A stretch of DNA of 64,000 bases from Tomocerus qinae (lineage: Eukaryota; Arthropoda; Collembola; Entomobryomorpha; Tomoceridae): NCBI GenBank assembly GCA_020055645.1, contig CM034546.1:78988001-79052000 (forward strand), read 5' to 3'. The notes beneath the pieces were generated by a model. The model had not been told where the DNA came from. It saw only the letters and a list, made by a program, of their open reading frames with translations, and did not search any database. Below, piece after piece: positions 4,374 through 61,667 of the stretch (the stretch's first letter is position 1; every line of letters begins with the position of its first letter). A program made the translations under genes and the position numbers.

Positions 4374-5929
4374 ATGGATAAGAAAATTAAAAATGTGAGA
4401 TCTTGCCATTCAAAGCAGTCAGGTTATAAAAGTGAATTATACCAATTATACATCAGTTACTTTCGACAAATGAAACTGCGAGGAATTTCTTCTTATGAAT
4501 TAGAAATGAACTCGAATTCAGAAACCATAAATTTGAAAACTTTCAAAACCGGAATTTTTTCATGGATGCCTTATCTTTCCTATCTTTTTGTTTGGTGCTT
4601 CCTAATCAGAAAATTTGCACTACTTTTCGTTATTTATAGTCGGAAGGACATGTCTATCGATGCCGCTGCTTTAATGCCGATTTGTGCAGCTCTAAGCATG
4701 ATAACCATTTTAAGAAATGACCAGAAATTTCAAAAAAATTACGTAGAAGCTGTAAACTGCTGGCTTAAACTGGAAAACCACATTTTTGGTAATTAAACTC
4801 AAGAATATCACTTAAATTATTAAAAACAATACAATAAGATTAATCCAATTACTTAAACTCCTATGCAGCTATGTAGTCCTTTTTATAAAGTTCTAGGTAC
4901 CCCTACGCTTTATATTTGAAATTTATAATTTCAATATTACAAAAAATTTATATCAGAAGAACCCTGCCTGTTAGATGTCTGATAAAAACAATTTTTAAAA
5001 TTAAGTTGTGAGCTGTTTTATATCATAAAGTTGAATATTTTTGGTACTCAAATCAATTTAAGTAGAATTATTACAGTAAATATTTTAGTTATCACTTTGT
5101 ACTATTTTTGTTTTTAGGAAACTCTCAATCTGCCTATGAGGAGCAGTTCAAATTTGTAAAATTCAGAACCTTTTTCTACCAGCAGATGTGGCTACCCAGT
5201 TTTCCTACGATGTTCATATTAGGAATGTTTGTACCAAGGTTTCCAGTTTTTCCCTATTTATTTGTCTCTGTTGATGAGGATGATACTTCTGTCGGATATT
5301 TTCTTCGGTTCATTTCTGCTCTGTCGGAAGCTGCGGCAGTACAGATGTTTTGGAGTACTAATACAAGTTTTGATATTTTGAGCCAGTCTATGAGCAACAG
5401 CATTCGATTGTGTCTTAAGCAGCTAATTGAAGATTTGCATTTTGAGTCAATCCAATTAGTCCCTGCTACTCGACAACAATTCAACATTTTAAATGCCATT
5501 GAACGTTACGGGGCCCTTCAAAGGCTAGTTATATACACAAATGAAATATTTTCGCCGTTAATTGTGAAACAAAAATCAATATATTATTTTTTCATTAGCA
5601 TGCTTCTGTATTCATCTATCACATTTGACAACATAATTATCATTTTTATGTTTTCTTTTATATTATGCGGTGCAATTGTTAGGCAACTGCTCCTTTACAG
5701 GCCCATTGGAGCAGTACAAAAAAGAAGTCAAGAATTTTTAAAAAATGTTAGACTTTTCTTGGGCAAAGAAAATGGAGACTTTAATACTTATAATTACCAA
5801 AGAATAGTTTTACGTTCTTTATCTCCCATTGCATTTTGTTGTGGAGATCGCTATCAAATTCAACCTCATACAGTTCTAAATTATTTCCATATTGTTTTTT
5901 GTAACATGATTTTTTTCTTACGATTGTAA
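4374..5929 (+). CDS. gustatory-type seven-transmembrane receptor, copy 2
   Basis: Exons 4374-4788 and 5118-5929 are joined by a phase-1 GT-AG intron and encode 408 residues. The protein shares long stretches with copy 1: the FRQMKLRGISSYE region near the N-terminus, the LPSFPTMF segment just after the intron, and the C-terminal GDRYQIQPHTVLNYF block. About seven hydrophobic segments predict a chemoreceptor channel. Exon 2 is the more conserved part. The N-terminal 30 residues differ from copy 1, which suggests relaxed constraint or an exchanged start. A polyadenylation signal lies 160 bases after the stop. The two copies probably arose by unequal crossing over. Both look functional. Confidence 0.82.
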
Positions 5930-32714: not shown

Positions 32715-34023
32715 TTATGGCATGGAAAGCAGAATGTCGACAGTGTTATCAACAATTTTGGACAAGAAGGTCAATGGGAATCCTCGATCCACAAAGCCAA
32801 ACTTGCCCATTCGGAGTGAAATGGGCTGCAAACCTCTAGCAAGTCGCTTGATTCTTTCGTTTTTGCTGGACTTGAGCAGAAAAATGAATTTGCTGGAGTC
32901 AGTGTGAATCGTCCCGGTTTGATTACATAAAAGTATTGCAATCAGAATGGATATTGCAGTCAGAGTTGGTAGAATGATGTAGTCCGAGAATTCCATGGTG
33001 TCTCTCAGTTTGACTGTGCCACAAAGCCCGAAGACGATGAGGAAATGTCCCGTTGCCACTTGCAGTGGAATCATAAAGGACGTGTGGTCGTTCACTGATG
33101 AAGAATAAAATCTTAATTGCGTGAAGAATTTAATTGCCAACTCGGAAGGAAATTTCCCGATTTTTTCTGCCCAGTGACATAGGAATTTAATGTGAATGGA
33201 TCCGAAAAGCAAGTAGACGTTTGCAGGAGCGATGAATGCCATTGTCGAGAAGAGCCCTAGAATGAAGAAAATCAGACGGTTTATTATCTCTTGGATGTGG
33301 ATGGTCTGTCCTCGTCGGTAAGGCGGCTCAATGCTGAGGTACGGATATGTGTTTCCCAAGCCAATATAAATTGACATAAGGAGAGCAATAACCATTTCCG
33401 AGGGAATGATACTCAAGACTACTACTCCAAAGTAGTCAAACCTCTGAGCTTTCCTATCTTCGATGACCAGTTCATTTTCGATTTCTGTAAAATTTAAATA
33501 AAGGTGAAAATGTCAATTCTTGTTGAATGCAATATCAAAGGTAATATTATATAATTCAAATATTGTTACATTTACTAAACCATGTAATTGAAATTTAGTC
33601 AAAAGAATGCCAAAACAAGTCTGGGTATTAATGCATAAGAAAAATATAGAAATAAAACGCCTTACTTGATAGTTTACGATCCAAATTTACGCAGCAATTT
33701 AGAAGTGGAGGACAACTTGTTAGTCCATTGCGCACCAACGAATAGTTTCCTCCACTAGATATTGCGAGAAGGATTATAAACAGAACTAATATGATTTTGT
33801 TTTCCGCTCCCAGCAGCTCGGAATTCAACGTCAGAAAGATTGTGCAATGAATCAGTATTAGTGAATTCAGCAGTGCACCTGCAGCCCAAAATCGAGTTTT
33901 CCATTTTCGTTTGCTGACGCTCACCTCAAGCGTTTTGGCGTTTAACTCAAAGGGGAGAAAGCCAAGCCATCCGAAAGTTTTAAACTGCCAAATCAATGCA
34001 AGTGCAGTCAATTTTGATATCAT
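32715..34023 (-). CDS. gustatory-type seven-transmembrane receptor, copy 3
   Basis: Two minus-strand exons, 34023-33666 and 33484-32715, with a phase-1 intron, give 375 residues. Multiple hydrophobic segments predict a multi-pass chemoreceptor. The C-terminal motif (GFVDRGFPLTFLSKIVDNTVDILL) matches the arrangement at the end of the receptor at 60364-61667 (VVKRMTGISLMRFIVDNLITMLL), so these two form one subfamily, distinct from copies 1 and 2. The single intron is again phase 1, about 119 codons in, as in the other receptors. No damage is visible. The ligand is unknown. Confidence 0.75.
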
Positions 34024-34097
34024 TTTGTCACATTAACTGTTTTTGAAACCTGAAAGTACCATAATATTTTTTATTATTAAGCTGCACATTAAACAAG

Positions 34098-34683
34098 GGG
34101 TGCCAATTAATTTGTATGGCGCACACATGACTTTTGCATGGGGAATTTTTTGACATTTAGTGTGACTTTGTATGGTGTGTTAAGACTTACCTAATGAATT
34201 TGTATGGAAACAATGACTATGTATGGTGATAGTTTTTTATAAGCATGCATAGTATATCAATATATATCACCATAGGTTGGTAAATTTATTCAAGTTTAAA
34301 AATATATTTGTAGAATGATAAGACCCAAGTAGAAACTGAACAGTTATGTAGAAAGCATGGATAGTTAGTTATGTGTGTAAAATGAATTCAATGCTCTGAG
34401 CTCCGACGTTATCTCATAATTAGCATGTTACCATCATTTTTCCAATCTGTACATTTCCTCTCCTCTGCATTTGTGTTTGCTTTATTTTGTTAAAACTTGC
34501 TTGTCCGTGAACACAACTACCATGGCCGGGACCATTTACCTATTATGTTAAATTAACTTAATATTACCATACAAAGTCATAAAGCGCCATACAAAGTCAT
34601 AAAGCGCCATACAAAGTCATACTATCTATTTTTAGCTCTCCCATACAAAAGTCATGTGTGTGCCATACAAATTCCTATTTTCC
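34098..34683. mobile_element. MITE, possibly Mutator-like, with 11-bp target duplication
   Basis: A 586-bp non-coding element is flanked by the direct repeat CATTAAACAAG (34087-34097 and 34684-34694). Its ends are inverted repeats: AATTTGTATGGC, CACACATGACTTTTG and CATGGGG-like words on the left recur in reverse complement on the right. The subterminal region has three copies of a 20-bp word containing CCATACAAAGTCATAA (34564-34620). A 9-11 bp duplication is typical of Mutator-like elements, so the family is inferred from that alone. Confidence 0.75.
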
Positions 34684-34694
34684 CATTAAACAAG

Positions 34695-36896
34695 TACTTG
34701 ACTACGAGTTTTATAAAAGCAATAAAATAATCTGGGCAAAAATGTTCAGCTATCTTTGGTCATTAATATTATCTTTGTGTCCAGAATCAAAAATGTTTTA
34801 TAGGTAAAATATTTCCTTCCATTTAGTAGGACCTCCCTTTAATATGTATTGGCTGTTGGTGAATCAACCAAGTTGTTAATCAAAATTTTTTACAATACCA
34901 TGGGTTAATTTACATCCTGACGAAAATATACTAAATACTATGTAATTTTATTATTACTTAAAATTTCTATTAATTCCGTGTAAACAAAATGAAAAATGGC
35001 TTGTAGTAAATGTATCAGAAAAGCATTAATGACTTTTTTTTAAATTTTAGCACTTTTCAATGATTAAAATACCGACTACGATTAAACTAACTCACCCAAT
35101 TTCTATAAAATTATTTTTACTCTTTCAAAAATGGAATAAGAACGTTCACCAAGTATGATGTTTTGTATTGCTAGCTAAAGTATAATAAAAAAATAACCTA
35201 AATCAGTGCTTTGAATGACTTACGTTTTTACTTAAACAAAGGAGTGACGAAGAAGGTTCAGTGAAATTGTATAATTCCCTGAAAATAATTAGTAGAAATT
35301 AAACTTTTGTGGACCTTATATATGCATATTGGCAAGATAATATCTACATTTGATTTTCTGGCAATGCGTTACTGTAATTTCTCATGCCAAAATATCATTA
35401 CATTTGACTTTTCTTAAAATTATAAATTCCGACTACGAATTGGATGTTGACCTGAACAAACTTGGGAGGCAGAATGTCTCTTTATTTAAATAAATTGATT
35501 TGTCGGAAATATTTTTTTAGTAAATTCTCTAAAATAAGTAATAAAATGTGTTGAATAGCTTGCTCTCAAGTATTAGCTCCTATTGCAAAGAGTAGCATAG
35601 CATTATGACAATAGTTCCAGGACAAAAGCACTTCCAATGAAAGTGCCTTTGAGAAACTATGTTGCAACATTCGATGTTGTTACAAAACGATCACAAGAAT
35701 GGGTTTTGAGTAAAGTGCATTTTCTGGTCAGTCCCTAGGACTAAACCTCCTACTTCTTGGGATGCAGTGTACTAGAACAGAATATGGCAATGTAAGGTTT
35801 GTACTTATACACATTCACAATTTCTTAGAAAATAATGTTTTTATATATTGTAAATTATTTGTATTTTGCTATACTTTAGGGCTTCTTAGTCAATATAATA
35901 GAACTTCTTAGGCAAAACTCTTATTTATAGAAAGTTGAAACTAACTTTTAACTTTGACTCCTCAGCACTGTTCATTTCCTACCTTTTACAATATCCGCCG
36001 GAAAGTCGACCTGAATAATTTCTGGAGTTTCTCAATACAATGACTCCTTAAACTTAACCATAAAGTATATTATATGGTGCTGAAGCACAAACTCGTTACA
36101 TTAAGTAATATCTAAATATATGCCCCAAAAAAGTTTAAGAAACAAATAATTCTAAAAATGCCGGTCTTCTATGAAAATTCATAGATTCATCTGAATGAAA
36201 TGAGCCCAACAGCCAAAATAAACGTATAAGCATCTATGACCAACTTGGTATGAAAACTCTCTAATATTGTGCCACGAAGTCGTTTATGAAATAGGTCAAG
36301 AATCGGATTCGTTTTATTTAAATAATTGGATGAAATATATGACAGAAAGCTATTTTCAGTTTTTCACTTTTTGATTAAATTTTTCTGAAATTAAGAAAAA
36401 CTACTCATACTTAAGATAATGCTTGTTGTGTGGAAAATGTTAACTGGCGTTGTCCATCCCTCACTTTTATGGCCACAATTACATCATATTTTTAAAAATT
36501 GCGTTTTGATCTAGTTCAAAAAGACCCAGAGGTTGAGTATCGGCGAGGTTTCGTAATAAGTTTCATCCAAATCAGTTCAGAGGTTTCTGAGATATATTTA
36601 TTTTGCTAGATAATGGAATTTTTATATTTATATTCATTTTATTTTTTATTTTCAGGCAAATTCTTTATTAGACATTCCAAATGCTTTTTTGTGGAAAAAG
36701 TTTGTATATTAATTAGTTATAAGAATTTATAATTATTCCATTCCTACAAATTTACGATTACCTTTTAAAGATGCAAAATGTAGCAATGCCTTCAATAATT
36801 GCAAAGGGTGGATTAGATCACACCCACAGTTATTTAATGCAATCACATCGGTACATGAAAAGTAACAGAATCAGTATCAAAAAAAATTGATGGGAA
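34695..36896. other. intergenic, no gene seen
   Basis: About 2.2 kb of AT-rich DNA without a recognisable frame, repeat or RNA gene. Confidence 0.5.
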
Positions 36897-38539
36897 TCAA
36901 TACAAAGCAGCATTTTCAATACGTCTCTGGTAATAATCGAAGGCAATAACAGGAGGGCGTGTAGAAAATTCTTCTCTCCCTGGAGAAATGGGGACAACTG
37001 GAAATATTTTCTCGTCGCCATCAGGATTAACAAAATACACAAAACTCTGACGAGAATCAGTGGCCGGGCGACCTTCTGTCAATATTCTGACTCGATGCCG
37101 CTACAAAGCAATTTAGAAATTCAACAAGACTTTTAGAAAAATGATACATATTAGTAGCAGTGTCAGTTAAATGCTACTAATACTTATTTCTTCGTATTTT
37201 ATCGGGTGCCGGTTGCTATATTTGCGTTGTATATCTGTTGCGATGGAATTTATTAATGTTTTAGTAAATGAATTCAGAAATGAATTTTACCGCAGCATGA
37301 AGTTCTCCAGCGGTCCAAAATTCCATTAGTTGGCCACTGTTGAGGAGAATTGCGTCTTTAATTGGAGTAGCAGGGATCCATTTTCCAGTGGATGACCGCA
37401 CCTTCAATTAGGCTCAAGTTAGATGTAATTTTATATTAATCGAAATGTCAAGGTCGTTTTAAAACTTTACAAAATTGACATGAACTGCAACTGCAGTCAG
37501 ATTATGAACAATCAAGCAGTGGCGTAAAAATGGAAAGTAAAGATAAAATTCATAAAATTAAGCATATTTGGGACTACCTCCAAGCCTCCAACCATATCCT
37601 GTACAAAAGAAAATAACATCAGCAAAGCTACGAACCTATTTTATAGCCAAAAGTTGAGTTCGTTTAATGATGTCATAAATGACCTGGAAAAGAAGTGTAA
37701 TTGAGCCCCAATCACTATGGTCTCCACATCTAATGACGTCTTCTGGATGGCTATCGTTAGGATTCAAAGTGTAATAATACAATGTCCTGAACTGTGTGTG
37801 GCTCTTCACGGAATTGTCATCCAGATTTTTATGACGTTTAACGAAAAAGTCTTCATCTTTCAATTTTCCGTCCATGTTCAAATACTTTCCTAAGCATTTC
37901 AGAATCTTCTTGGCACAAATCTCCATGTCTATTCGGATATCATCAACAGCCGCTTTCATTCCTGGAATTTCTTCTGGAAAATTCTTCTCGTCGTGCACAT
38001 CTTGCCCCCAAAAATCAATCAACTCTTTAAGCTCAGTTGAATTCTTTTCATTCTCATTCAAACTACAAAAACGAATAAAATCTGACAATTTTTTGACCCT
38101 TGGAATTTATAAACCAGATAAAAACCGTAAAAATGGATTGTTGAAAATTGAAAGCTCACAATTCGTCTCCAGGGCCCGAATATCCATGATAAGATTTTAC
38201 CGGGTCTGTTTTTTTGAATTTTCTTTTGATTTCTATTGGCAATTGAAAAAAATCTTTGCAAAGTTTGTAGACCAATTCAAGCTGATAAAAGCAAAAAGAT
38301 TTATTTTAATATACTACATTGTACTTATACAAGGCACAGATAACGATTTACAACTTATTTATCAATTAATAATATTTCAATACCTTTTTTAGGTCGACTC
38401 CATGATTTACAATATAGGCAAAACCAACACTGCCCATTGCAGCACCAAGTTCCTTTGCAACTCTTTGGTAGTTATCATCATTCACATTTTCAAAGTGGCC
38501 CACAATAGCTGAGAAATCTACAATTGGAATCTCTACCAT
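36897..38539 (-). CDS. Fe(II)/2-oxoglutarate oxygenase, IPNS-like, copy A
   Basis: Six minus-strand exons, 38539-38384, 38281-38160, 38062-37684, 37598-37578, 37401-37291 and 37100-36897, join to 330 residues. The N-terminus (IPIVDFSAIV, GFAYIVNHG) is the DIOX_N domain of the isopenicillin N synthase/ACC-oxidase family. The jelly-roll core supplies the iron ligands H208 and D210 (HSDWGS) and H265 (HRV), and the 2-oxoglutarate/substrate anchor R280-x-S282 (RQS). All are intact, so a cytosolic mononuclear iron oxygenase is expected. The substrate is unknown, and true beta-lactam synthesis is not implied. Exon 4 is a 21-nt micro-exon (DMVGGLE). The gene shares every exon length with copy B. Confidence 0.88.
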
Positions 38540-39457
38540 ATTGTCTGCAGAAAAAAAATCCTGTGACCTCTAGCTATTATTTATTTTTGTGCAAATCTTA
38601 ATTTAGAATCCTAAAAATTGGAATGGAGAAGATAAAGGACCCTAGGTATCTCATACACTTGTCAATTTACAACTTATGAATGGCTGCAGTTTTTTTAACG
38701 ACTGCATACAGTTTTCCAACCACAATGGCAGTTATCAATATTAATACAATTCTACTCGGTCAGACTATTGTACTATTTTGTATCTATGTACGTTGAAGTT
38801 GTAAATAGATAAAAGAGAGTTAAGCAAGATAAACAACACTCACCCACTCGCTTCTCACAGGAAAAGGTGTCCTGCCTCACCCGCCTTACTTGATGAGTTG
38901 GTACAGAGGAAAGATATCCGCCTTTAGATTTACATAAATGATAACGTAAAACAGATGCATTTGTGTAGGTTATAGGGGAACAATAGATATAAAAGGAGAG
39001 GGGATACTAGGGGAGCATGTAAATATAGGTTATCAACTGAATTCAATTCTAACTCCACCACTTTCCACAGCAGCAACAATGCCATTTCTAAACGCACAAT
39101 AATGGCCACTAAAAATAAGTTGGGACAAAAAGCATTTTTCAGAAAAAACTGAAGCAATCCATAATCCCAATCTTAAAAACGCAAAACTTTTGCATTTATA
39201 TCAATGTTTAATAATGTTTAATAATTCTTAATTCGCTCCAAAAGTGCTGCCACGCACTGATTGGTTTCAAGAAGGTATCGGCTTCCACAAATTATTATGA
39301 CATGTAATCCATTCCTTCCAATTCAATTATGATTACTTAGTATCCCTTGATATGGTCTCCTTATAGTTGAGGCATATGCCAAAATAGAAAAAAACGAGTG
39401 GGTAATGGCAAATAAATCCTGATATTCAGCAAATTCTGAGTTTTCTTTTCATAGAAT
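38540..39457. other. intergenic, no gene seen
   Basis: Separates oxygenase copy A from the LigB-like gene. It should hold the promoter of copy A on the minus strand. No motif is convincing. Confidence 0.5.
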
Positions 39458-40891
39458 TTATTCAGGAAACCAAATGGTTACCATCATTCCAAAATAGGAT
39501 GGTACACTATATTCATAGAAATGTGCTCGATATTCGTCCCCATTTTTGACCGATTGGCTCAATATTCCATGAAGTATTACGAGTCCTCTATAACCACAAC
39601 TGCCTGCTAATTTTTCAATATAACCAGCTCGATGAATGAGAATATTTGTACTTCTTTCCTCGGTTTCACGATTTCTATCCAATTTAGCCCATTCCAAACA
39701 ATAGTTATCAAAAGGTCGGGCAACTTCACTATATGGATAAGGACTGGATGTTGCGTTGGAGTGGTAATGAGACAAATCACAACTAACCACAATTGCAACC
39801 CTTTTGTGTGAGAAAAACCGATTGTTATCAATAATATTTGCAATATCATTTCCCATTTTTAAATACGGGGTCAGTGAATGTCTTCGTGGAACTCCAATCA
39901 ACACAACAGGAGGAAGTTTATAATTTTCACTGTCGGCTGCTTCTTTGAGAAATGTCCAGGGAATCACCTCGGCCCAACGAATTGGCAATGTGTCCCTTCC
40001 AGATCTGTATAGATTTTTCATTGTTGATATAAATTGCTTTTGCGTATTTTAATATTTTGGATTTTGAGACATATTAATTTAGCAAGGTGCAAAATTATGA
40101 TTAAAAAGAAGTCATAATATACATTAATACACATTTCTTTAAATTAGAGGTATATCTTAGTCTAACACAAAATACAAACGTAACTAACCCCAATGTCATC
40201 ATTTCCACAGGGTTGCTGAAATTAAGCAAATTTTTAAAAATAACGGCCGAGGACTGCAAATCTAAATCGAAAGATGCAGAGTATTTCCCTTTTCCAAATG
40301 ATCCTTCAGCCTGTTACATATTATGCAAGGAATGAAAAATGAAAAATTATTAGTGAACACTCTAGTAAAAAGTTACTGAGTAAGCTCTCAAAATAATTAT
40401 TTCAAAACCACAAACATTTCTCTCAACAGATTTTTGATTAATCTAGCCTTTCTGCAAATATAAAATCATAAAAGATAAAATGATAACCCATTTACATGTG
40501 CTCCTCCCACAAATAGAAAATGGTTCTGTAGCTTTAGCCCATGAGGAGTTGTAAGGATTATTAAATCCGGTCTCTTTCTCACAAGTTCATGTGCCGCTTT
40601 CTTCATTGCCTTGTTAAGTTTTATACTTTCTTCTTTTGTCTTTTCTCCAGAAGCAGATTCCTTAGAGTAGTCTCTGTTCTCTGGGTCAACAGTAATACCC
40701 CCATGGGGAAAAACAAAAACTCCTACTATTCCATTTCTGCTGTCTATTGTAGTTTCCGTTTCATTCAAACCTGATTTGAATTTAATAGATCTTTGCCTGT
40801 TGCGAATGTCATTATGACAATTAATAGAACTGACGAAAAAAATAATTATGATAAAAGTCACTTTTAAATGTTTATTGTAAATATACGTCAT
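39458..40891 (-). CDS. secreted LigB/MEMO-superfamily extradiol-dioxygenase-like protein
   Basis: Exons 40891-40496, 40310-40189 and 40004-39458 (phases 0 and 2) encode 354 residues. A signal peptide occupies about residues 8-25 (FIIIIFFVSSINC). The remainder follows the class III extradiol dioxygenase subunit B / MEMO fold: FPHGGI (H63), a Lys-rich helix, PDLIILTTPHG (H117), CDLSHYH (D249, H252), a SCGYRGLVILHGIL block and the final SYFGMM strand. Those His/Asp residues are the usual metal site. Where many bacterial homologues have a DHG active-site histidine before the VP motif, this protein reads RWAEVIP (W183), so catalysis is uncertain. It lies between two oxygenase paralogues on the same strand. 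The bacterial-style family makes horizontal transfer worth testing. Confidence 0.75.
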
Positions 40892-42230
40892 GGCGTAATT
40901 TGAGGACCCGTTAGAATTATCGAGTAATAAAAATATTTTGTTACTATGAAGTGAATGTATGCTGCTCTTAAAATCGAACTACAATCCATTCTTGTATAAA
41001 TCAATGGCTCAATTGCGTCTCCGGAATAAATCCTAACCAAACTAATGATGAGATTAACATCTGTTAGTTAATCTGCCCTAATTACTATATATAGCAGTAC
41101 AAAATAAATGAATATTGAAAACAATAGAGAGGGAATAATGATTAACTTTGTTACACCCTACAAAACAGAAAACCATTACTCATCTGTAGTTTAGACAATC
41201 GTGAAAAATGCATCATTATGAACACTATGTATACCTATAACAAGTAATAGAAAATGGCCAATGCCAATACATTTAACGAAATAGGTAAAATTTCCACCTT
41301 TCTTACCCATGTAATTTATAATGGTCTGAAAGAGTCTTTATTGGTGTGAAATAGTGTACTCAATCAATCATCAAAGATCTAATTCAATCGTTAAATCAAT
41401 AATGAAAGCAATATGTCGAATTAATGGGGAATCTCCGATTCACCAGCCATAGCCTTAAATTAAAACTGAAATAAATGGAATCATAATATTACAAGGCTTC
41501 CAAGAAAAAGGGGAATTTTTTCTCAAAATACCAAAAAATTTTTGCTTCGCGCGATTTTATGTGATTTTTAGGTTATTTTTGACTCATTTTAGACAAAATA
41601 AGCCAATGACACTTGACATTTTTATAATGAGTTGATCTATCTATAAGTTCAAACTAGAAATATAATTTGACAGTTCACACAACTTTGGAAATAGAGTAGT
41701 CCATTCATAGCTTATTGTAATTCTTAATTGAACAACAATTGAGATGCCCAGTGTACTTTTTTATTCATTTACGGTATGTGATGAGTGATGACGAATATAA
41801 GCAGTACCATGAATGTTTTCTCACTCCTTAAATGTGAGATTAGTATTATGTCCAAATAAATACTATACGTATAATAATGAAAAAATACATGATATTTTTA
41901 CCTAAATTTTACCTTTTATTTTACCTAACCTTTATTTTACCTTTTATTTTACCTAACCTAACCTAAATGATGGAAATCTTGCTATTTAATACATAGTATT
42001 TCGATTTATACATAAAAAGTGCATAAAACCAAAAATACAGTATTTTAAAGTATACAGTAGGGGAGCACGATAAATAACTTCCGAATATAGTAAACACGGG
42101 AAATAGACGCTAAATATTATGCTGTTTCCAATTACTAATAGTTTTTAGTATTCAGAGAATTATTAGAATTATTCAATGCAGAATTATTATTGTAATCAGA
42201 TAAGTAGACCGTCATCCTCAGAATTCTAAA
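40892..42230. other. intergenic with dispersed repeat
   Basis: No gene. The inverse copy of the dispersed repeat lies at 41500-41607. CTATATATAG at about 41090 on either strand could be the TATA element of the LigB-like gene but lacks an obvious initiator. An ACCTAACCT-type short repeat lies near 41925-41965. Confidence 0.5.
41500..41607 (-). repeat. dispersed repeat, second copy
   Basis: Reverse-complement relative of 21605-21713, ordered CCAAGAAAAA, TTTTTCTCAAAATACC, TGTGATTTTTAGG, TATTTTTGACT, AAAATAAGCCAA. Estimated 75-80 percent identity by eye. Confidence 0.7.
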
Positions 42231-44520
42231 TCAATAAGAAGCAGTACTCTCAATGCGCTCTTGGTAATAGTCGAATGCAAATACGGAAGGTCGGGTAGAA
42301 AATTCTTCTCTCCCCGGAGCAATGGGGACAACTGGAAATACTTCTTCGTCACCATCAGGATTAATAAAGTACGCGAAACTCTGACGTGGATCAGTGGCAG
42401 GACGACCTTCTGTCAATATTCTCACTCGGTGTTGCTACAAAAACACGTTTACAAGGAAATTAGATATAAGCCTTGAAGGACGGTCAGTTCACAATAGAGC
42501 AATAAAAAAGCTAGAGATGCTTTAACTAGACACAATGGGGTAAATGCTACGTTTAAGTGGTGATACTTACTTTTGTTTAATTACATGTCGCTGCCAGACA
42601 ATCATTTTTATTATCACCTAATATTTAATTCATTTGCTACAATGTATATAATGTTTTCAAGAATTAATCAAACCAGTTTTCCCTAAAATCTTTATTACTT
42701 TTAACACGAAATGTCAATTAAATATAATCCGTATCCGATGGTATACATGTGTAATTAAATGGTACAGTATATTCACAGGTGAAACTATTCCGTAGACAGA
42801 CGTCATTTTACAATTTACGTGATTTAAGTCTGTTGACAAGGTATTTAATCATTGTTTGGAGGCAATATTATACCATAAAAAGTATAATCATTTTACTTCT
42901 GAGGAAAATGTTAGGAGCTTGGGCATAAATAATGTATTATTATAAATAATTTATGATTTTATGTATGTATGACTATTTATTATGTCTACAAGGTTCAATA
43001 AAATTATAGAGAGATGTGGCTCTTACCGCAGCATGAAGTTCTCCTGCAGTCCAAAATTCCATTAGTTGGCCACTGTTGAGGAGAATTGCGTCTTTAATTG
43101 GAGTAGCAGGGATCCACTTTCCAGTAGATGACCGGACCTTAAGTTAGACGCAAATTAGATATCATTAGTTGAAGTTAATTTTTAAAATGGACAAATGCCT
43201 TAGAATGTTTTAAACTAGCGATTTTAACCCAGCGATTGCTTACAGCATACGAGATAAGCCTAAATATTTCTAAGTCCTAAACAATTCCGCCTCTTATGTA
43301 CTGTAGTGGTATAATATTGCCTAAAGTAGATTTCTAATGGGGTTAGTAAATTTATTTCGAAATCGTTATTACCCCATCCTAATATCGTGACCGTTTTAAA
43401 AGTTAGCAAAATATTTACATGAACTCAGTCACCGCAATTAGACCAAAAGAGCAAGCTGGAAAATGAAATACAAGGAAAGAGTTGACAAAATCGAAAATTC
43501 GTGGAATAATGCATTTGGGACTTACCTCCAAGCCTCCAACCATGTCCTGTAAAATAAAATAACAAAATTAGTCTAGACAAAAACCTCATTTAAATCTTTT
43601 CCTGGTATTACTAGAATAAATAAATAATTATGATTCCAGGTAATTTATTATAGAAATAAATTACCTGGAACAGCATTGTGATTGAGCCCCAATCACTGTG
43701 TTCTCCGCATCTAATAGCGCCTTCCGGATGATTTTCATTGGGATTCAACGTGTAGTAATATAAAGTCCTGAACTGTGTCTGTGTCTTCACGGAATTGTCA
43801 TCAAGATTTTTATGACGTTTAACGAAAAAGTCTTCATCTTTCAATTTTCCTTCGATGTTCAAATACCTTCCTAAACATTTCAGAAGCTTTTTAGCGCAAT
43901 TTGCCGTTTCAATTCGGAAATCATCAATAGCGGCTTTCATTTCCGGAATTTCTTCTGGAAAATTCTTCTCATCGTGCATATCTTGCCCCCAAAAATCAAT
44001 AAATTCTCGAAGCTCCGTTGAATTTTTTTGCTGTTCATTTATTCTGCATAAACGATAAAAATTAAATTCTTACAATTTTCATTACCCATGGAACGCAAAA
44101 TACTGATACATAATTACAAACAAATTCATCATTATAGTATAGATTGATATTATGTGAATACTCACAATTCGTCTCCAGGACCCGCATAACCATGGAAAGA
44201 TTTTGCCGGGTCTGGTTTTCGGTATTTTTGTTTGATTGATTCAGGCAATCGAAAAAAATCTCGGGAAAGTTTGTAGATCCAATCAAGCTGATAAAACAAT
44301 CAAAAAATTAGTGCACAATAGTACAAATGAAACAAGAGGAAATTAAAGGAAATGCAAAATTTACCTTTTTTAGATCAAGTCCATGATTTATAATGTAAGC
44401 AAAACCAATGCTGCCCATCGCAGCACCAAGATCCTTTGCAACTTTTTCGTAATCATTTTCATTCACCTTATCAAATTGGCCCACAATAGCCGAGCAATCT
44501 ACAATTGGAATTTCTATCAT
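42231..44520 (-). CDS. Fe(II)/2-oxoglutarate oxygenase, IPNS-like, copy B
   Basis: Six minus-strand exons, 44520-44365, 44287-44166, 44043-43665, 43546-43526, 43137-43027 and 42434-42231, give 330 residues. Exon lengths equal those of copy A exactly (156, 122, 379, 21, 111, 204). The iron triad H208, D210 and H265 and the RQS anchor are present. Differences are spread through the protein (for example INEQQKNS for LNENEKNS after intron 2), with no stops or shifts, so both copies appear constrained. The introns have diverged strongly in length and sequence, so the duplication is not recent. Members of this family are scattered in arthropods, fungi and bacteria. Cytosolic. Confidence 0.88.
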
Positions 44521-45685
44521 CTTGTTTGTCTACAGATTCCCGTATATGCAATTACCTATTGATTTATTAGGGAAATCTTTACGGAAAATCTCAAAAATAT
44601 TGTTTGAGGGGAGAAAGAAATGTTCTTGTTAACAACTGAAGACAGACTGAAACTCTTTGGATACAATTTATCATTACAAGACTCGCCCAGAATAGTTTAT
44701 ACATATAACTGGAGGTTTTAAGTAGCTATAGAGAAGGACAAAAGGTGAACTTGTAAAACAATGCCACCGTTTACAAGCGTGGCCCATCCTACCCCCTAAA
44801 CATGTCTATTCAATATACTCGGTTGCATACGGCGATAAAGTTATCACATTTTTATTGAGATAATGGTCCAATAAAGCAGACATACATGCTATACATATGC
44901 ATCCCAGGAATTCAGTTAAAACGAATCCTTTTGCAGAAGACTTATATTGACTCCCTTACAAGTGGACGTCCTTGATGGCCTTTGTTGTTTAACAACTGAT
45001 AATTTAATGTAACCATTACACGGCACATATATGTAGTAGTCTGAACGAGCAGTGAAGCCAGTAGTTCCAATGTCTAGGCCAAAGGAGCATGTATCTTTAT
45101 TTCGTATGCCATAGCCAAAGGATCTATTACTATTAGTCCGTAGGCTAGTCCATTTCTCAAATTCGGCTTGGCACCTAGAGTGTTTATTTGGAGAAATATG
45201 GTAGTTTCTATGCAGTTACCTGCACGCCTAATAAGTTGTAGTAATAAAATAAATAAATTTACACTGCTCGAAATGGAAGACTCAATTATTATAATTCACG
45301 GAAGAAGGAAGGGGACAACAGACTGAAATCTAATTTTGCACAAACTTAAAGTGATAAAAATTGTAGCCTGGAGCAAAAATGTACGATTAACGTAAGTTGA
45401 TGATGCATAATGCACCGCAATGCAACTGCGTATAATTATAGCAGGTGAGATGAGACACTGTGAACAAAGTACTTCAATTATCAACGCAGCCAGGTTAGAA
45501 GTTTTATTGCTTCTGTAACTTTTCTTGCTAAACAAGAGATTGATTGATGTATACATGTACAGACTATTTTGATAGAGTTGTAGGCTGTTGTAGGCTGTAG
45601 CCTTACATAGTCAGATAAATAAACGCATTCATTGTTCTTTGTGGGACTACAAGTTAAGTTAAACAACATGATCAATTACAAATCA
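44521..45685. other. intergenic, no gene seen
   Basis: Region upstream of copy B up to the hAT-type element. No supported frame. An 86-codon minus frame at 45296-45556 lacks domains. Confidence 0.5.
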
Positions 45686-45693
45686 GAATTTAC

Positions 45694-46306
45694 CAGGGAA
45701 CAAAAATGAACTCTTGTTTTACAAAAAAGGTAAAATGTAGTACTTTTTCTATAAAAGTAGTACTTTTTCTAAAAAACAGTACTTTTTCTAAAAAAACAGT
45801 ACTTTTTCTAAAAAGGCAGTACTTTTTCTAAAAAACTACTTTTTCTAAAAAACAGTACTTTTTCTAAAAAACAGTACTTTTTCTAAAAAACAGTACTTTT
45901 TCTAAAAAACAGTACTTTTTCTAAAAAACAGTACTTTTTCTAAAAAACAGTACTTTTTCTAAAAAACAGTACTTTTTCTAAAAAACAGTACTTTTTCTAA
46001 AAAACAGTACTTTTTCTAAAAAACAGTACTTTTTCTAAAAAGAAGTACTTTTTCTAAAAAAGCGGTACTTTTTCCAAAAAAGCAGTACTTTTTCTAAAAA
46101 ATCAGTACTTTTTCTAAAAAAGCAATATTTTTTCTAAAAAAGCAGTCCTTTTTACTTTTAACGTTTTTTTACCTTATTTACATGTAAATTGGAAATAAAT
46201 GGGGTACGCTGCTACATCAAAAAAGACAAAAAATTGACTGCCTTTAAAAAATCTTACTTCTACCTTCTTTATAAAAAAGGCAAAAATTGTCATTTTTTGT
46301 TCCCTG
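45694..46306. mobile_element. hAT-type MITE carrying an 18-bp minisatellite
   Basis: Termini CAGGGAACAAAAA on the left and its inverse, ending TTCCCTG, on the right define a 613-bp element. The flanks are GAATTTAC (45686-45693) and GCATTTAC (46307-46314), an 8-bp target duplication with one mismatch. CAGGG-type ends plus an 8-bp duplication are the hAT signature. There is no transposase. The interior is mostly an 18-bp tandem repeat. Located just downstream of the C-type lectin gene. Confidence 0.85.
45735..46155 (+). repeat. 18-bp minisatellite
   Basis: About 23 copies of the unit CAGTACTTTTTCTAAAAA, with outer copies diverged (length 17-20) and the central ten or so near identical, which indicates recent expansion from the middle. 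Confidence 0.9.
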
Positions 46307-46473
46307 GCATTTACATGTTCGTTATGATGATTAAATACATGCTACATACCAAACAGTAAACATATTAGAATAGAATGAATCAGAAACCAGCGTTGAATAA
46401 TTATAATATTGGTAACATAATTTATGCATCAAGCTGAATGTTTTAATAATTCTCACTCCGAAAGAAACATAAT

Positions 46474-49400
46474 TCATACATCACAAATCGGGGACTCTGT
46501 TGTCCCCGGCGGGGCAGTGGTTGTTGGTGGGAGAGCTGTGGTCGGGGATGTTCCTTCAGTCCTACGATAAGTTAAAAACAACCAAATTTAATATTTTTAA
46601 GCTTGGACGAGCAAATAGCAAAGCCTTAAATTGGCAAGAATTTATAGCTTTTTTAAGCTATTTTATATTCTACCATTTTATATAATATTAATATTGACAA
46701 TTAATTGTTGATTTCCTAAAGGTTTTTAGATACTCCAAAACTCCTCTTTTAAAGATTTCCAAATATAAGATAAATGAATATTAAACAAACATTTGTATTT
46801 ATATGAGTACACAAGCGATAATTATTTGGTGATAGCTCTAAGGACGTTGTCATTCATTCTAGAGGTATTGATAGATATTCATTTGCTCTGAACTTTTCAT
46901 CATAATAATATTATTGCAGGGCAAAATAAGTGGGTCAAGATTATTAAAATGATAACTTGAAAATACTGTTGAGGGTTTAAACGAATCAGGAAATGCAACT
47001 AAGTGTGACAAACATTGTTAAGCCGAAAAAATGAGTAATTGTTAATGTAGCCTTACACTTCACAAATTGAGTGGCGAGATGCAGTCATATCATTAACAGC
47101 CCAATATCTGTTAAATAGAGCATTGACGATCACAATTCGGGAACTGTCATTGCTACTGCTTGGCTCAGTTGGACTCCATTGGGCATTGGTAATTTGTTGT
47201 TGGTTAGAAACCCATCGCCATACTCCAGAAAACGAGTCATAGGCACCGGATGTCCACACGATACCTAAGAAATACAATAACAATTACTTTTTAATTTTGG
47301 TAAGAGATACTTGGTTTTTTGTTTTTAGAGGAAAATCATACTTCGCCCGTCTTTCAGCATTAAATCTCGAATATAATCATTTTCTTCAGTTGTTTCAACT
47401 GTGAGTAGCTGACCATTAAAAGCTTGTTGGCATGAAAACCACGCATCACCCCAATTGCTCTATGAAAATATATTATGCAATAAAAATGTTAATTTTTCAG
47501 CTAAATAATAATCTATGTGTAACCGAGTGATCATGTCAAGGAAACTGTTTTATATTTATTATTTCATACTCGAATATTTGTTATTATTTGTTTGTTGGAT
47601 TTATTGGTGAAATAAGGAAAATTAATCAGTCGATTAGAAATTCTGATGAAAGTAACACGCATGTAGTGGTCGTGTCGGAATTGGAACTAAATTCTATATT
47701 TTCGTTAGTAAATCGTAGTAGTTTTTGTAAGTTACTGGTTAGCGGAGTCGGCAGTCAGTACTTTACATGGTCCTTCGAGCCGGATTAAAAGGACCGGATC
47801 TTCTTAATTCTCTAGTTACTGTTTTATGCAAGTTTCGTCAACACAAAATTGGATTTAGTGGGGATATCAAAGAGATGTTCCATCAAATCTGTATCCGAGA
47901 AGAAGGTGTAACTTCTCAAAGATTTTTATGGCGGGGAATGGATCGGCATCGCGAACCAGACACATATGCAATGCAAGTAATGTTATTTGGAGGAGTGTCA
48001 TGTCCATTTCAAGCTCAAGAAGTTAAGAACAGAAATGCGAAAGAATTTATGAGCGAAAATCCTGAAGCCGTAGACGCCATAATAAATCGACACTATATGG
48101 ATGATTATTTGGATAGCTGTTCAACTGAGGAAGAAGCTTTGAAGAAAATCTTGGATGTAATAGAAATACACCGTCGTGGAGGATTTGAGCTCCGAAATTG
48201 GACGTGCAGTTCAAGAGAAGTTTTATCCAAGATACCAAAAGAATTGCAATCGGATAAAACAAAGAACATGAATATTGAATCTGAATTACCTGTGGAACAA
48301 ATTCTTGGTTTGTATTGGAATCCGAATTCAGACAGCTTTTCATTTACTTTAAATTTTCATAAGGTGAACAAAGAAATTGTTGAAGGAATCCGAAGACCTA
48401 CAAAAAGGGAAGTATTAAAATTGACAATGTCAATTTTCGATCCTCTTGGCTTTATTGTTCATTATACAGTAAAATCAAAAATCCTATTGCAAGATATCTG
48501 GAGAAAAGGGATTGGATGGGATGATGAGCTCTCTGAAGATCTTTACTGTAAATGGAAAATATGGCTTGGTGAATTAAAGGGAATTACTACTGTGAAGATA
48601 CCTAGATGTTATATGCAAAATATTGAGGATGCAGTTTCAATTCAACTACATGTTTTCTGCGATTCAAGCGAGAAAGCTTTTGCAGCCGTGGCATATCTGA
48701 GGGTGCAAGTGGGGAACAATTATTATACATCGTTTATCTCAGCTAAATCACGTGTGGCACTACTACGTCCACTTTCTATTCCAAGATTAGAGCTACAAGC
48801 AGCTGTAATGGGAAGTCGACTAGCTGAATGCATTGAAGAAAGTCACAGCATTACATTTCACGAAAAACACTTTTGGTCTGATTCAAGAACAGTAATTTGT
48901 TGGATTAATTCAAATGCTCGAAGATACAAGCCGTTTATTGCTCATAGAGTTGGAGAAATCTTGGAATTAACCGAAGCTAGTAGTTGGCACTGGATAACTA
49001 CTAATGAAAACGTGGCTGACGAAGCCACAAGGGACAATTCTCCGAGCGAACTTCATCCAGAATGTAGATGGTTCAATGGTCCTGACTTTCTTCGATCACC
49101 GGAATCATCGTGGCCTATTTTAAATGAGGAACGCATTATGGGAGAAAATCTACGGGGGGAAGAATTGGAAATGAAGAAGGATTTTGCGAACTTCATTTCG
49201 TGCAATGAAAATTCTCTTCCAGACATTAGTAGATTTTCATCCTACACACGATTAATTCGTACTACAGCCTGGATTCTCAGATTTTTGAAGATTTCCAAAT
49301 TGAAAAGCAAAACCCGAAATCAAAATAAGTCATATGAACTTTCACCAGAAGAAATACGTGAAGCAGATATTCTTTGGATTAAGCAAAGCCAATTTGAAAG

Positions 49401-51548
49401 TTTCTCTTCCGAAATATCTTGCTTGGAAAAGGGTAAACCTATCGAAAATAGTAGCCGCTTGAAAACCCTATTACCTGTTTTAGACGATTACGGAATAATT
49501 GGAATGAAAAGCAGATTAGTACAATCTCCAGATCTGGAAACTGAAGTGAAACAGCCAATCAGTTTAGACCCTAAGCATGCATACACAAGACTTTTAATCA
49601 GATACTATCACTGGAAAGCTAATCATAATGGTCAAGAATTTGTTTTTAACGAAATGCGACAGAGAGTATGGATACTGGATATGAGAGCAGCTATCAAGCG
49701 AGTTTGGAATTCATGCCTTGTTTGCAAAATTAGACGAGTCACCCCGATTATAGCGAAAATGGGCAATTTACCGGAAGTAAAATTGACTCCTTATGTTCGT
49801 CCATTTACAAATGTGGGCATGGACTACTTTGGCCCAATGGAAGTCACTATAGGACGAAGACAAGAAAAACGATACGGAGTACTATTTACGTGTCTTTTTA
49901 CTGGAGCCGTTCATCTTGAGATCGCAGCATCTTTATCAACAGATTCTGCTATTATGGCGATACGAAGGATGATTGGCAGACGGGGATATCCAGCTACCAT
50001 TCACTCTGACAATGGTACGAATATGCGAGGAGCAAATACAGAAATGAAGACTGCAATCAAAGAATTAGATCAAAATAAGATTGTAGCAGATTTATCAATG
50101 AAAAGAATTGAATGGCGGTTCATACCACCCTCTGGGGCTCACATGGCAGGGAGCTGGGAACGTTTAGTGCGATCGGTGAAGACAGCACTTGGAGCTGTTT
50201 TGAAAGAAAAATCCCCGAAAGAAGAAACACTGCAAACTCTAATGGTAGAGTGTGAAGCAATCGTGAATGGAAGGCTCTTGACTCACGTTTCTGTGGATCC
50301 TGTGGACAAGGAAAGCCTCACCCCCAACCATTTCTTAATGGGAACATCTAGTGTTGGAACATCACCTGGAAAATTCGTGGATGCAGATCTATGTCTGCGG
50401 AAAAACTGGAGGATTGCTCAGAAATTAGCCGAAAACTTCTGGAAAAGATGGATTTATGAGTACCTCCCTACATTAGCTAAGAGGACAAAATGGCACAAGA
50501 CTACCAAGCCGATTAAAATTGATGATCTGGTTCTTATTGCTGATGGAGATTTGCAAAGGAACCACTGGCCCAGAGGGATCGTCGTGGCCACTCATCCTGG
50601 AAAAGATGGAGTAGTTCGTGTAGTAGACGTGAGAATTTTTAGACGACCTGTAGCCAAAGTGTGCATCCTTGACGTAGAACCGGAAGGGAAAAGACCCGAT
50701 GTCTTTTACGGGGAGAAGGATGTAACCGAGTGATCATGTCAAGGAAACTGTTTTATATTTATTATTTCATACTCGAATATTTGTTATTATTTGTTTGTTG
50801 TATTTATTGGTGAAATAAGGAAAATTAATCAGTCGATTAGAAATTCTGATGAAAGTAACACGCATGTAGTGGTCGTGTCGGAATTGGAAATAAATTCTAT
50901 ATTTTCGTTAGTAAATCGTAGTAGTTGTTGTAAGTTACTGGTTAGCAGAGTCGGCAGTCAGTACTTTACACTATGTAAAAGTTTATTATTAATAAATCAA
51001 TAGTTAATATAAATTAAATAATAGTGTTTAATTAAGTAAAATAAATAAATATAATATTGATGTATGGAATTATTTCCTTACCGTTGTAGTGCTGACGTAA
51101 TAAACAGAGCTTACTGCAGCAATATTACTTCGTTGGACACCCGTAGTCAGAGGAGAAAAGCGTCCGAATTGTGTATAGTCTGAAATTGAAAATTGTCGAT
51201 TAATACCTGTAAAACTACTTACTAACTAGTCAATCGCGTTTTCAATAGCTTTAATTGGAGAGGCACTATACGACAAAATGATATTGAAAATTATTGTGGT
51301 TTTCACTTTCAACTAAATTTTCTCCGTTAACTAGAAACTTGGTAACTAATACAACCAATTATAATTTGTTAGAAAATTCACATTTTTCATTCAATTTTCA
51401 AGAAATGCTAACATTCTTTAAAAAATCTGCCTATAACATAATTAGGCTTTACAAACTGTTATACATATATAAGCTTACCTAATTGAAAAGCCAAATTCAT
51501 GTATGGCAATGCAGAGAAAAGAAATAAATAAATTGGGTATCTGCCCAT
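46474..51548 (-). CDS. secreted C-type lectin-domain protein with Pro/Thr tail
   Basis: Five minus-strand exons, 51548-51479, 51179-51082, 47459-47342, 47264-47057 and 46561-46474, join (phases 1, 0, 1, 2) to 193 residues. Exon 1 is a signal peptide (MGRYPIYLFLFSALPYM). Residues about 45-165 form one C-type lectin domain: YYVS, WGDAWFSCQ (C66), WTSGAYD, WRWVSN, W-SP-EPS, AVND and SICEV (C163). Only the outer disulfide pair C66-C163 is present. The inner pair and the EPN/WND calcium-sugar motifs are degenerate, so sugar binding is doubtful. Exon 5 adds a Pro/Thr-rich mucin-like tail ending PICDV. Without that splice the frame would stop just after ICEV. Intron 2 is enlarged by a BEL/Pao insertion on the opposite strand. 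Confidence 0.8.
47518..47767 (+). repeat. 5' LTR
   Basis: 250 bp, starts TGTAACCGAG and ends GTACTTTACA. Partner of 50721-50970. Confidence 0.93.
47767..50733 (+). pseudogene. BEL/Pao pol remnant: partial RT, RNase H, integrase
   Basis: One open frame of 988 codons. It opens inside the primer-binding site and enters reverse transcriptase abruptly at the GPDLLNSL motif, so everything upstream (gag, protease, first RT motifs) has been deleted. Visible are the RT catalytic box YMDD (about residue 112), an RNase H region (FCDSSEKA, WSDSRTVICW), the integrase HH-CC zinc knuckle (HYHWKANH to CLVC), the DDE core (MDYFGP, HSDNGT, GSWERL) and the C-terminal BEL-type domain. No internal stops. The frame ends 13 bases inside the 3' LTR. 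It cannot supply Gag or protease, so any movement would depend on a complete relative. Confidence 0.88.
50721..50970 (+). repeat. 3' LTR
   Basis: 250 bp, four mismatches to the 5' LTR by eye. Followed by target duplication CTATG. Confidence 0.93.
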
Positions 51549-60363: not shown

Positions 60364-61667
60364 TTATTTATTTTTTGGAATGGTCAAAAGCATGGTAATG
60401 AGATTATCAACAATAAACCTCATCAATGAAATTCCAGTCATTCTCTTCACAACAAACCAATTCGAACATCTGAAGCCAAAGGGTCGACAGATTTTGATTC
60501 GGCGTCTCTCATAGGCGGACAATTTCACATTCTTCCATTTGTTTTGAAAATCTTTAGAATTTTCAATAATATTTCCCATTCGAGGAAAGCCAAACAATTC
60601 AAAACAAAACAGACCTATGGTAATTGCCGGGTTATACAAATAGACAGACAGGGGACGGCTGTGCTGGGTAGCAGTGCCGTAAGCTGCGAGAATGTGCTGA
60701 ACAGCCAGACCGAGAATCATGAAGGGTACAATATGAAATACAATTTCATCGATCTCTTTCATAATCAAATTCAAACACTCATAAATGTGCACTGCTTGTG
60801 CAGCACTTTTTATTTTTGGATTGTTTGAACCAAGCAGACAGAGAAAGCTGTTGAGGTATTTACATACAAGCAGCCACATAATTGCAAGGATGTACAAAAA
60901 GGAGATGACATTTCCAGCAACGAACAACGTTCCAGCTGCGACGCCCAACTTTACTGGAAAAAAAGTGTGGACATCTTCATCAAAATTTTCCACCAGAAAT
61001 CGATATGCAGGGTCCGAAACACTGCCGACCAACACTTGGGATGCTACGGCGCCACTTGAGACCAATGCAATGCTCATTGCAATGAAAACGACTAGTTTCG
61101 GCCACTGAGATGCGAGGAATCCTTCTTTGTCTTTTCGCTTAGGCGGGATACTTATACCTATGAAATTCATTTGACAATGAAATCAATCAGTCAATTTTTT
61201 TTAACACTGATCATAATCCTAAGAATTAGTAATTTAATTTACATACCTGAAAAATACCGAAAGAGGAAAATGAATTTTTTCGTAATCAAAAACATTTGCT
61301 CCCCTTTAACAAACACCATCAGTTGAAAGATGAAGTAATTTAACAAGAAGGAAAAGTAGAGCATGTAGATCACAATTTCTTGTCGTTGGAAATTTGGATC
61401 TGGCGAGAATAATTCCTTGGAAAGTCGAAATGTAGCATATAGGAGGAGTACAGCGGAAAACTCGATCATCCACATCCATACAACGTAGCGAAATCTGTTT
61501 TTGGTGTAGCATATCGACAAGGATTTTCTGTCCCAGTGAATTATATTTGTAAAACAACACTGAGACAAGAAGAATAGCCAATCTACGCAATCAAAATGCC
61601 TATTATAAAGATTTTCAAGCTGTCTACATAGATCAGCGTACAAATTTGTTGGCCTATGCATATCCAT
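60364..61667 (-). CDS. gustatory-type seven-transmembrane receptor, copy 4
   Basis: Exons 61667-61247 (140 codons plus one base) and 61157-60364 join in phase 1 to 404 residues. The first exon shares its sequence with the truncated copy at 53843-54109. Multi-pass hydrophobic profile without signal peptide. The C-terminus (MRFIVDNLITMLLTIP) groups it with the receptor at 32715-34023. The intron position and phase equal those of copy 1 despite little sequence similarity. Predicted chemosensory channel with unknown ligand. Confidence 0.8.

Follow-up and report, generated by a model that had tools for sequence, protein, structure and literature searches.

We analysed a 64,000-nucleotide stretch of the genome of the springtail Tomocerus qinae (GenBank assembly GCA_020055645.1, contig CM034546.1, positions 78,988,001 to 79,052,000 of the forward strand; hereafter the window), in which two oxygenase genes flank a gene for a LigB-superfamily protein. 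Gene models rebuilt from the sequence showed that positions 36,897-44,520 are filled by three minus-strand genes in the order A-B-C. All 12 introns carry GT...AG boundaries and every coding sequence is open up to its stop codon. A previous reading made from the letters only (the sequence-only reading) had given coordinates, gene order and splice structure that the rebuilt models reproduced exactly, and its assignment of these genes to oxygenase-type proteins of two unrelated folds was borne out by Pfam matches. The three genes are as follows.

Gene A, 44,520 to 42,231, minus strand: 2-oxoglutarate (2OG)-Fe(II) oxygenase of 330 residues in six exons (44520-44365, 44287-44166, 44043-43665, 43546-43526, 43137-43027 and 42434-42231), from the splice model, Pfam and motifs.
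Gene B, 40,891 to 39,458, minus strand: LigB-superfamily protein of 354 residues in exons of 396/122/547 bases (40891-40496, 40310-40189 and 40004-39458), from the splice model and the Pfam LigB match; a signal-like N-terminus covers about residues 1-25, as judged by hydropathy.
Gene C, 38,539 to 36,897, minus strand: 2OG-Fe(II) oxygenase of 330 residues and tandem paralogue of A, in six exons (38539-38384, 38281-38160, 38062-37684, 37598-37578, 37401-37291 and 37100-36897), from Pfam.

Both A and C matched the DIOX_N and 2OG-FeII_Oxy families of Pfam over the cut-off (E 2e-19 to 4e-18), with 2OG-FeII_Oxy scores of 66.7 and 66.1 bits, respectively, at a cut-off of 23. In 2OG-Fe(II) oxygenases the HxD...H motif binds Fe(II) and the RxS motif binds 2OG; both proteins read HSD...H starting at residue 208 and RQS at residue 280. 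Among the best 60 of 63 PDB matches of gene A, the highest score belonged to the ethylene/succinate-forming enzyme 9ovh (112 bits), and further matches included thymine dioxygenase 5c3p (91.5 bits) and an iron/ascorbate oxidoreductase (90.9 bits). The matches to 9ovh and 5c3p are nearly full-length and share both motifs with A, but the similarity is low at these scores. Gene A matched no NCBIfam family at E values up to 1.

A and C have one and the same series of exon lengths (156/122/379/21/111/204), and 71 synonymous and 76 non-synonymous changes separate the two genes (dS 0.43, dN 0.105). A dN/dS of about 0.25 with 71 synonymous changes indicates that both copies have been under constraint since the duplication. 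Comparison of window 41,300-47,000 with 34,000-41,000 revealed DNA similarity in the exons and parts of the introns, which breaks off no more than about 10 bases from the start and stop codons. Exon 5 (43,027-43,137 in A and 37,291-37,401 in C) has no amino-acid change and five synonymous changes; its DNA identity is 95.5% versus 80-85% for exons 1, 2, 3 and 6, a pattern for which either gene conversion or strong constraint could account. A 15-row tree placed A and C as sisters (96/97) inside a 13-row paralogue group; rows C4_13.54Ma and C1_72.55M may join exons of adjacent copies, C4_13.545Mb is partial, and C1_60.9M has one stop, entered as X. The claim that the outer genes are paralogues with identical exon lengths thus held in exon structure, divergence and tree.

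A whole-genome search with A returned 61 exon-level matches; those over the long third exon were grouped by hand into at least 19 copies, including A and C; 2OG-FeII_Oxy was matched at four more places beyond these. Two other paralogues, located at C1:77.55 Mb and C1:72.586 Mb, show exon lengths of 147/122/367/21/111/207, in which 147 is a lower bound as the first exon was counted from the first aligned residue. Since these copies share the 122/367/21/111/207 series, an exon pattern of this kind is not peculiar to the A/C pair. A and C thus form one small branch of an expanded oxygenase family. The paralogue at C1:77.55 Mb (L040:3967-4333) reads GENCDWG where two others read GEHCDWG, replacing the first His of HxD with Asn, and this copy is possibly inactive through the loss of that His.

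The sequence-only reading had called A and C IPNS-like and had pointed to horizontally transferred IPNS genes in springtails. Springtails are reported to carry IPNS, ACVS and cefEF genes (PMC10531068), and their IPNS is thought to have been transferred (PMC5490193). That A and C might be horizontally acquired relatives of IPNS tied to springtail beta-lactam synthesis would agree with these reports and with the long nonribosomal peptide synthetase (NRPS) frames present in this genome. Among the best 20 candidates scored, NRPS condensation domains gave 12 matches, nine of them over the cut-off; the frames that contain them reach 2456 residues in length. However, the best IPNS match of A among its PDB hits reached 33.3 bits, versus the 112 bits of 9ovh, and on this ground an IPNS identity of A was rejected. 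A plasmid search returned 319 records with a relative of A, each less than 60% identical, and the 12 listed are 27-30% identical; a close bacterial source among plasmids was likewise rejected, and the idea of a recently transferred IPNS was left without support. The condensation-domain matches all lie on C1, at 37.8-42.2, 60.1 and 108.4 Mb, with the window at 79.0 Mb. The nearest condensation-domain match among the 20 candidates is about 19 Mb from A and C, which thus lack the linkage to ACVS described for springtail clusters. We give the beta-lactam explanation almost no credence.

The label itself proved loose, as 3 of the 12 listed plasmid relatives, at 27-30% identity to A, carry the annotation 'isopenicillin N synthase family oxygenase'. 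The same kind of IPNS-type label has been placed on ctenophore and oyster genes (PMC4488382). 'IPNS-like' thus survives for A and C as a superfamily label, and such a name often means only 2OG-oxygenase-like. Elsewhere in the genome, at C1:120.03 Mb, an intronless 2OG oxygenase frame (L001:922-1959) scores 489 bits to 9ovh and shares 62.8% identity with a protein from a Gloeothece plasmid; its base composition resembles that of the three window genes A, B and C. Being close to bacterial enzymes in the comparison with PDB and plasmid proteins, this frame would make a stronger candidate for transfer than either A or C.

Gene B scored 35.4 bits against Pfam LigB (cut-off 26.3). It has two paralogues, B2 at C1:40.08 Mb and B3 at C2:66.7 Mb, which over the domain are 68% and 45% identical to B, respectively; B3 scores 25.5 bits, slightly under the LigB cut-off. 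Both intron positions coincide in B, B2 and B3, at alignment columns 137 and 178. This agreement suggests that the family is old and has long carried introns, and not that it came from bacteria recently. The most hydrophobic 11-residue stretch of B sits in the first 35 residues with a value of 3.05, which 6 of 2000 shuffles reach there. The N-terminal values of A and C are 1.81 and 1.84, reached by 99 and 140 of 2000 shuffles, respectively. The N-terminus of B2 is also strongly hydrophobic (14/2000), and B3, with the start codon chosen for it, begins at the domain and lacks such a stretch (1036/2000). The signal peptide previously ascribed to B thus stands as a hydrophobic, signal-like N-terminus, on hydropathy only, and B is probably secreted.

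In the PDB, B had a single match whose E-value was meaningful (1.3e-8), TK2203 (5hee), an extradiol-dioxygenase-like protein that shares with B the P-[IL]-x-W-x-E-x-[IV]-P motif and a C-terminal YFGM. Unlike the animal protein B, TK2203 is archaeal and has no Cys facing Cys309 of B; the alignment begins at TK2203 residue 38, leaving out His63 and the N-terminus. Six residues, His63, His117, Asp249, His252, His254 and Cys309, are invariant across B, B2 and B3, and the conserved His, DLSHYH and SCGY motifs of B are reminiscent of LigB as well as of MEMO proteins. B likely carries a metal site, for which these residues provide putative ligands. The metal site of class III extradiol dioxygenases is of the His-His-Glu or three-His type (PMC11081632, PMC11926856). 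In MEMO1 the iron ligands H49, H81 and C244 correspond to the LigB residues H12, H61 and E242, and dioxygenase activity was not detected for MEMO1 (PMC11081632).

These features raise the question of whether B is a secreted MEMO-like metal-binding protein and not a ring-cleaving enzyme, as the iron binding of MEMO1 and the invariance of Cys309 and the DLSHYH stretch in the B family would allow. The DLSHYH-like and Cys-Gly motifs of B are shared with MEMO, the AmmeMemoRadiSam system protein B. A search of 99 genomes gave 31 PF02900 matches, 30 with loci, and 20 of these 30 yielded bacterial frames of MEMO type (at least 191 bits to a profile built from two MEMO proteins); 16 of these 20 contain S-D-x-[ST]-H and 19 have a Cys-Gly further on, as in B. 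The full SSDLSHYH occurs in 2 of the 20 and in locus L044. A true bacterial MEMO attains the LigB cut-off of 26.3 bits, so that the LigB score of B, compatible with MEMO, is not proof of an extradiol enzyme and family scores do not separate LigB from MEMO. Local profile matching of B to MEMO, centred on the DLSH stretch, reached probabilities of 93.9% and 95.2%. In the global profile alignment, however, only His117 and His252 meet a MEMO His, and His63 and Cys309 are not opposite like residues. B also falls below the MEMO cut-offs (16.9 versus 26 bits for TIGR04336 and 13.6 versus 27 for PF01875), differs from MEMO in its signal-like N-terminus, and shares the genome with a separate MEMO match at C2:65.4 Mb. 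B was accordingly rejected as a canonical MEMO, and the broader MEMO-like, non-cleaving alternative appears possible but doubtful.

DODA/YgiD class III extradiol dioxygenases belong to the same Pfam superfamily as B. B reached profile probabilities of 2.4% in one comparison with DODA and 13% in another, the latter against a DODA set drawn from plus-strand loci, and was rejected as a DODA. In the weak (13%) alignment His63 and His117 face DODA-type His residues, with the third ligand not located. The genome has a clearer DODA-type gene with a LigB domain at C1:123.89 Mb (L078:581-1434), which is split into exons, the first scoring 82 bits, and in which SAHWEE and REEHLIPL were noted by eye.

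B had also been described as bacterial-style. Pattern scans of genome contigs gave 54 stretches and no relative with B alone, and 75 stretches with the B/B2/B3 alignment, among which the one relative was a MEMO gene beside AMMECR1. Plasmid scans found no relative of B3 or of B, and 17 stretches from viral contigs contained none of B; these scans used two to six short peptides and are hence narrow. In 297 genomes of one bacterial phylum the single, weak match was a MEMO. With no close prokaryotic relative in these narrow searches and introns common to two paralogues, the bacterial-style description is not supported. Among the listed titles of openly available papers, none reports a gene of LigB or extradiol type from springtails or from arthropods at large, and one of the searches brought up only the paper on spider-mite intradiol enzymes (PMC9167512); this does not prove that such reports are absent. 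In this genome itself, a LigB family search picked up the DODA-type gene alone and recovered none of the three genes of the B family; family searches therefore under-count in this intron-rich genome.

We further examined whether A, B and C form a functional metabolic or defence cluster, as the sequence-only reading had proposed. B2 is neighboured by an ion-channel exon and a CCSMST1 frame, and B3 by kinase and glycosyltransferase exons. The nearest of the 19 counted oxygenase copies lies 21.5 Mb from B2 and 6.4 Mb from B3, so that a counted 2OG oxygenase is found within 6 Mb at one of three LigB loci and 2 of the 19 copies adjoin a LigB gene. The four extra 2OG-FeII_Oxy matches leave the 6 Mb statement intact, the nearest, at C1:60.93 Mb, being 20.8 Mb from B2. 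With B2 and B3 beside ordinary genes and no counted oxygenase within 6 Mb of either, the A-B-C order does not recur. Inside the window, the best non-self tblastn match of B among the best 20 had an E-value of 1.7. The window contains 27 open reading frames (ORFs) of at least 110 residues, and Pfam scanning of 11 of them, uncut, identified zinc-finger, carboxylesterase and Pao-type element domains; F-box-like and 7tm_6 matches were below the cut-off, and 6 of the 11 had no match. No obvious pathway partner was seen among these 11 of 27 ORFs, short exons being outside the scan.

We consider it rather probable that the locus combines a tandem oxygenase pair, A and C, with an independent and probably secreted LigB/MEMO-superfamily protein, B, as neighbours without a common pathway. 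A and C, as tandem duplicates within an expanded Fe(II)/2OG oxygenase family, would be expected to use HxD...H for binding Fe(II) and RxS for binding 2OG. Their substrate would be a small molecule within the cell, whose oxidation might plausibly serve detoxification or secondary metabolism. B would represent a three-gene family, with a signal-like N-terminus in two members and none in the third, and would probably perform metal-dependent O2 chemistry on catechol-like substrates, or bind metal, outside the cell. Several points weigh against this separation of A/C from B. Three iron-oxygenase-type genes in 7.6 kb are notable, even if the pairing was chosen post hoc and has no chance level; the 19 copies are a lower bound, with other oxygenase families outside the search; and secretion of B has hydropathy as its sole basis, the start codons of B2 and B3 having been chosen by the analyst.

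The opposing explanation is a two-compartment metabolic or detoxification cluster, in which intracellular A and C would oxidise aromatics and B, as a secreted enzyme, would cleave catechols outside. The tight packing of the genes on the same strand suits it, and both folds include non-haem iron oxygenases. Intradiol dioxygenases have a fold unrelated to that of B. An arthropod analogy for B is offered by spider mites, in which secreted ring-cleaving dioxygenases serve detoxification, although these enzymes, unlike B, are of the intradiol type, of fungal origin and enzymatically tested (PMC9167512). Against the cluster stand the other two LigB loci, where the arrangement is absent, and the 11 scanned ORFs with no obvious pathway partner, and we regard it as unlikely. 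A more specific version, in which B would found a secreted animal LigB/MEMO branch with a His-His-Cys metal site that cleaves or oxidises soil or dietary catechols outside the cell, with A and C processing the products inside, seems to us highly improbable. If true, the cluster reading would add a detoxification cluster in an animal, and the evidence here is against it. The sequence-only reading was thus right on folds, paralogy and the signal-like N-terminus of B, and did not hold for IPNS, the cluster or a bacterial-style B. The lasting point of the locus is B, a probably secreted animal LigB/MEMO-superfamily protein with invariant, metal-site-like residues and a paralogue that lacks the signal-like N-terminus.

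Other features of the window include four ORFs that look like multi-pass chemoreceptors (1,826-2,647, 5,066-5,929, 32,715-33,512 and 60,364-61,182); the first matches 7tm_6 weakly, under the cut-off, and the other three match nothing in Pfam. Upstream of gene A, a tandem repeat with a unit of about 19-20 bases is visible by eye at 45,740-46,000. On the plus strand, a Pao-type retrotransposon frame of 996 residues runs without stops from 47,743 to 50,733.

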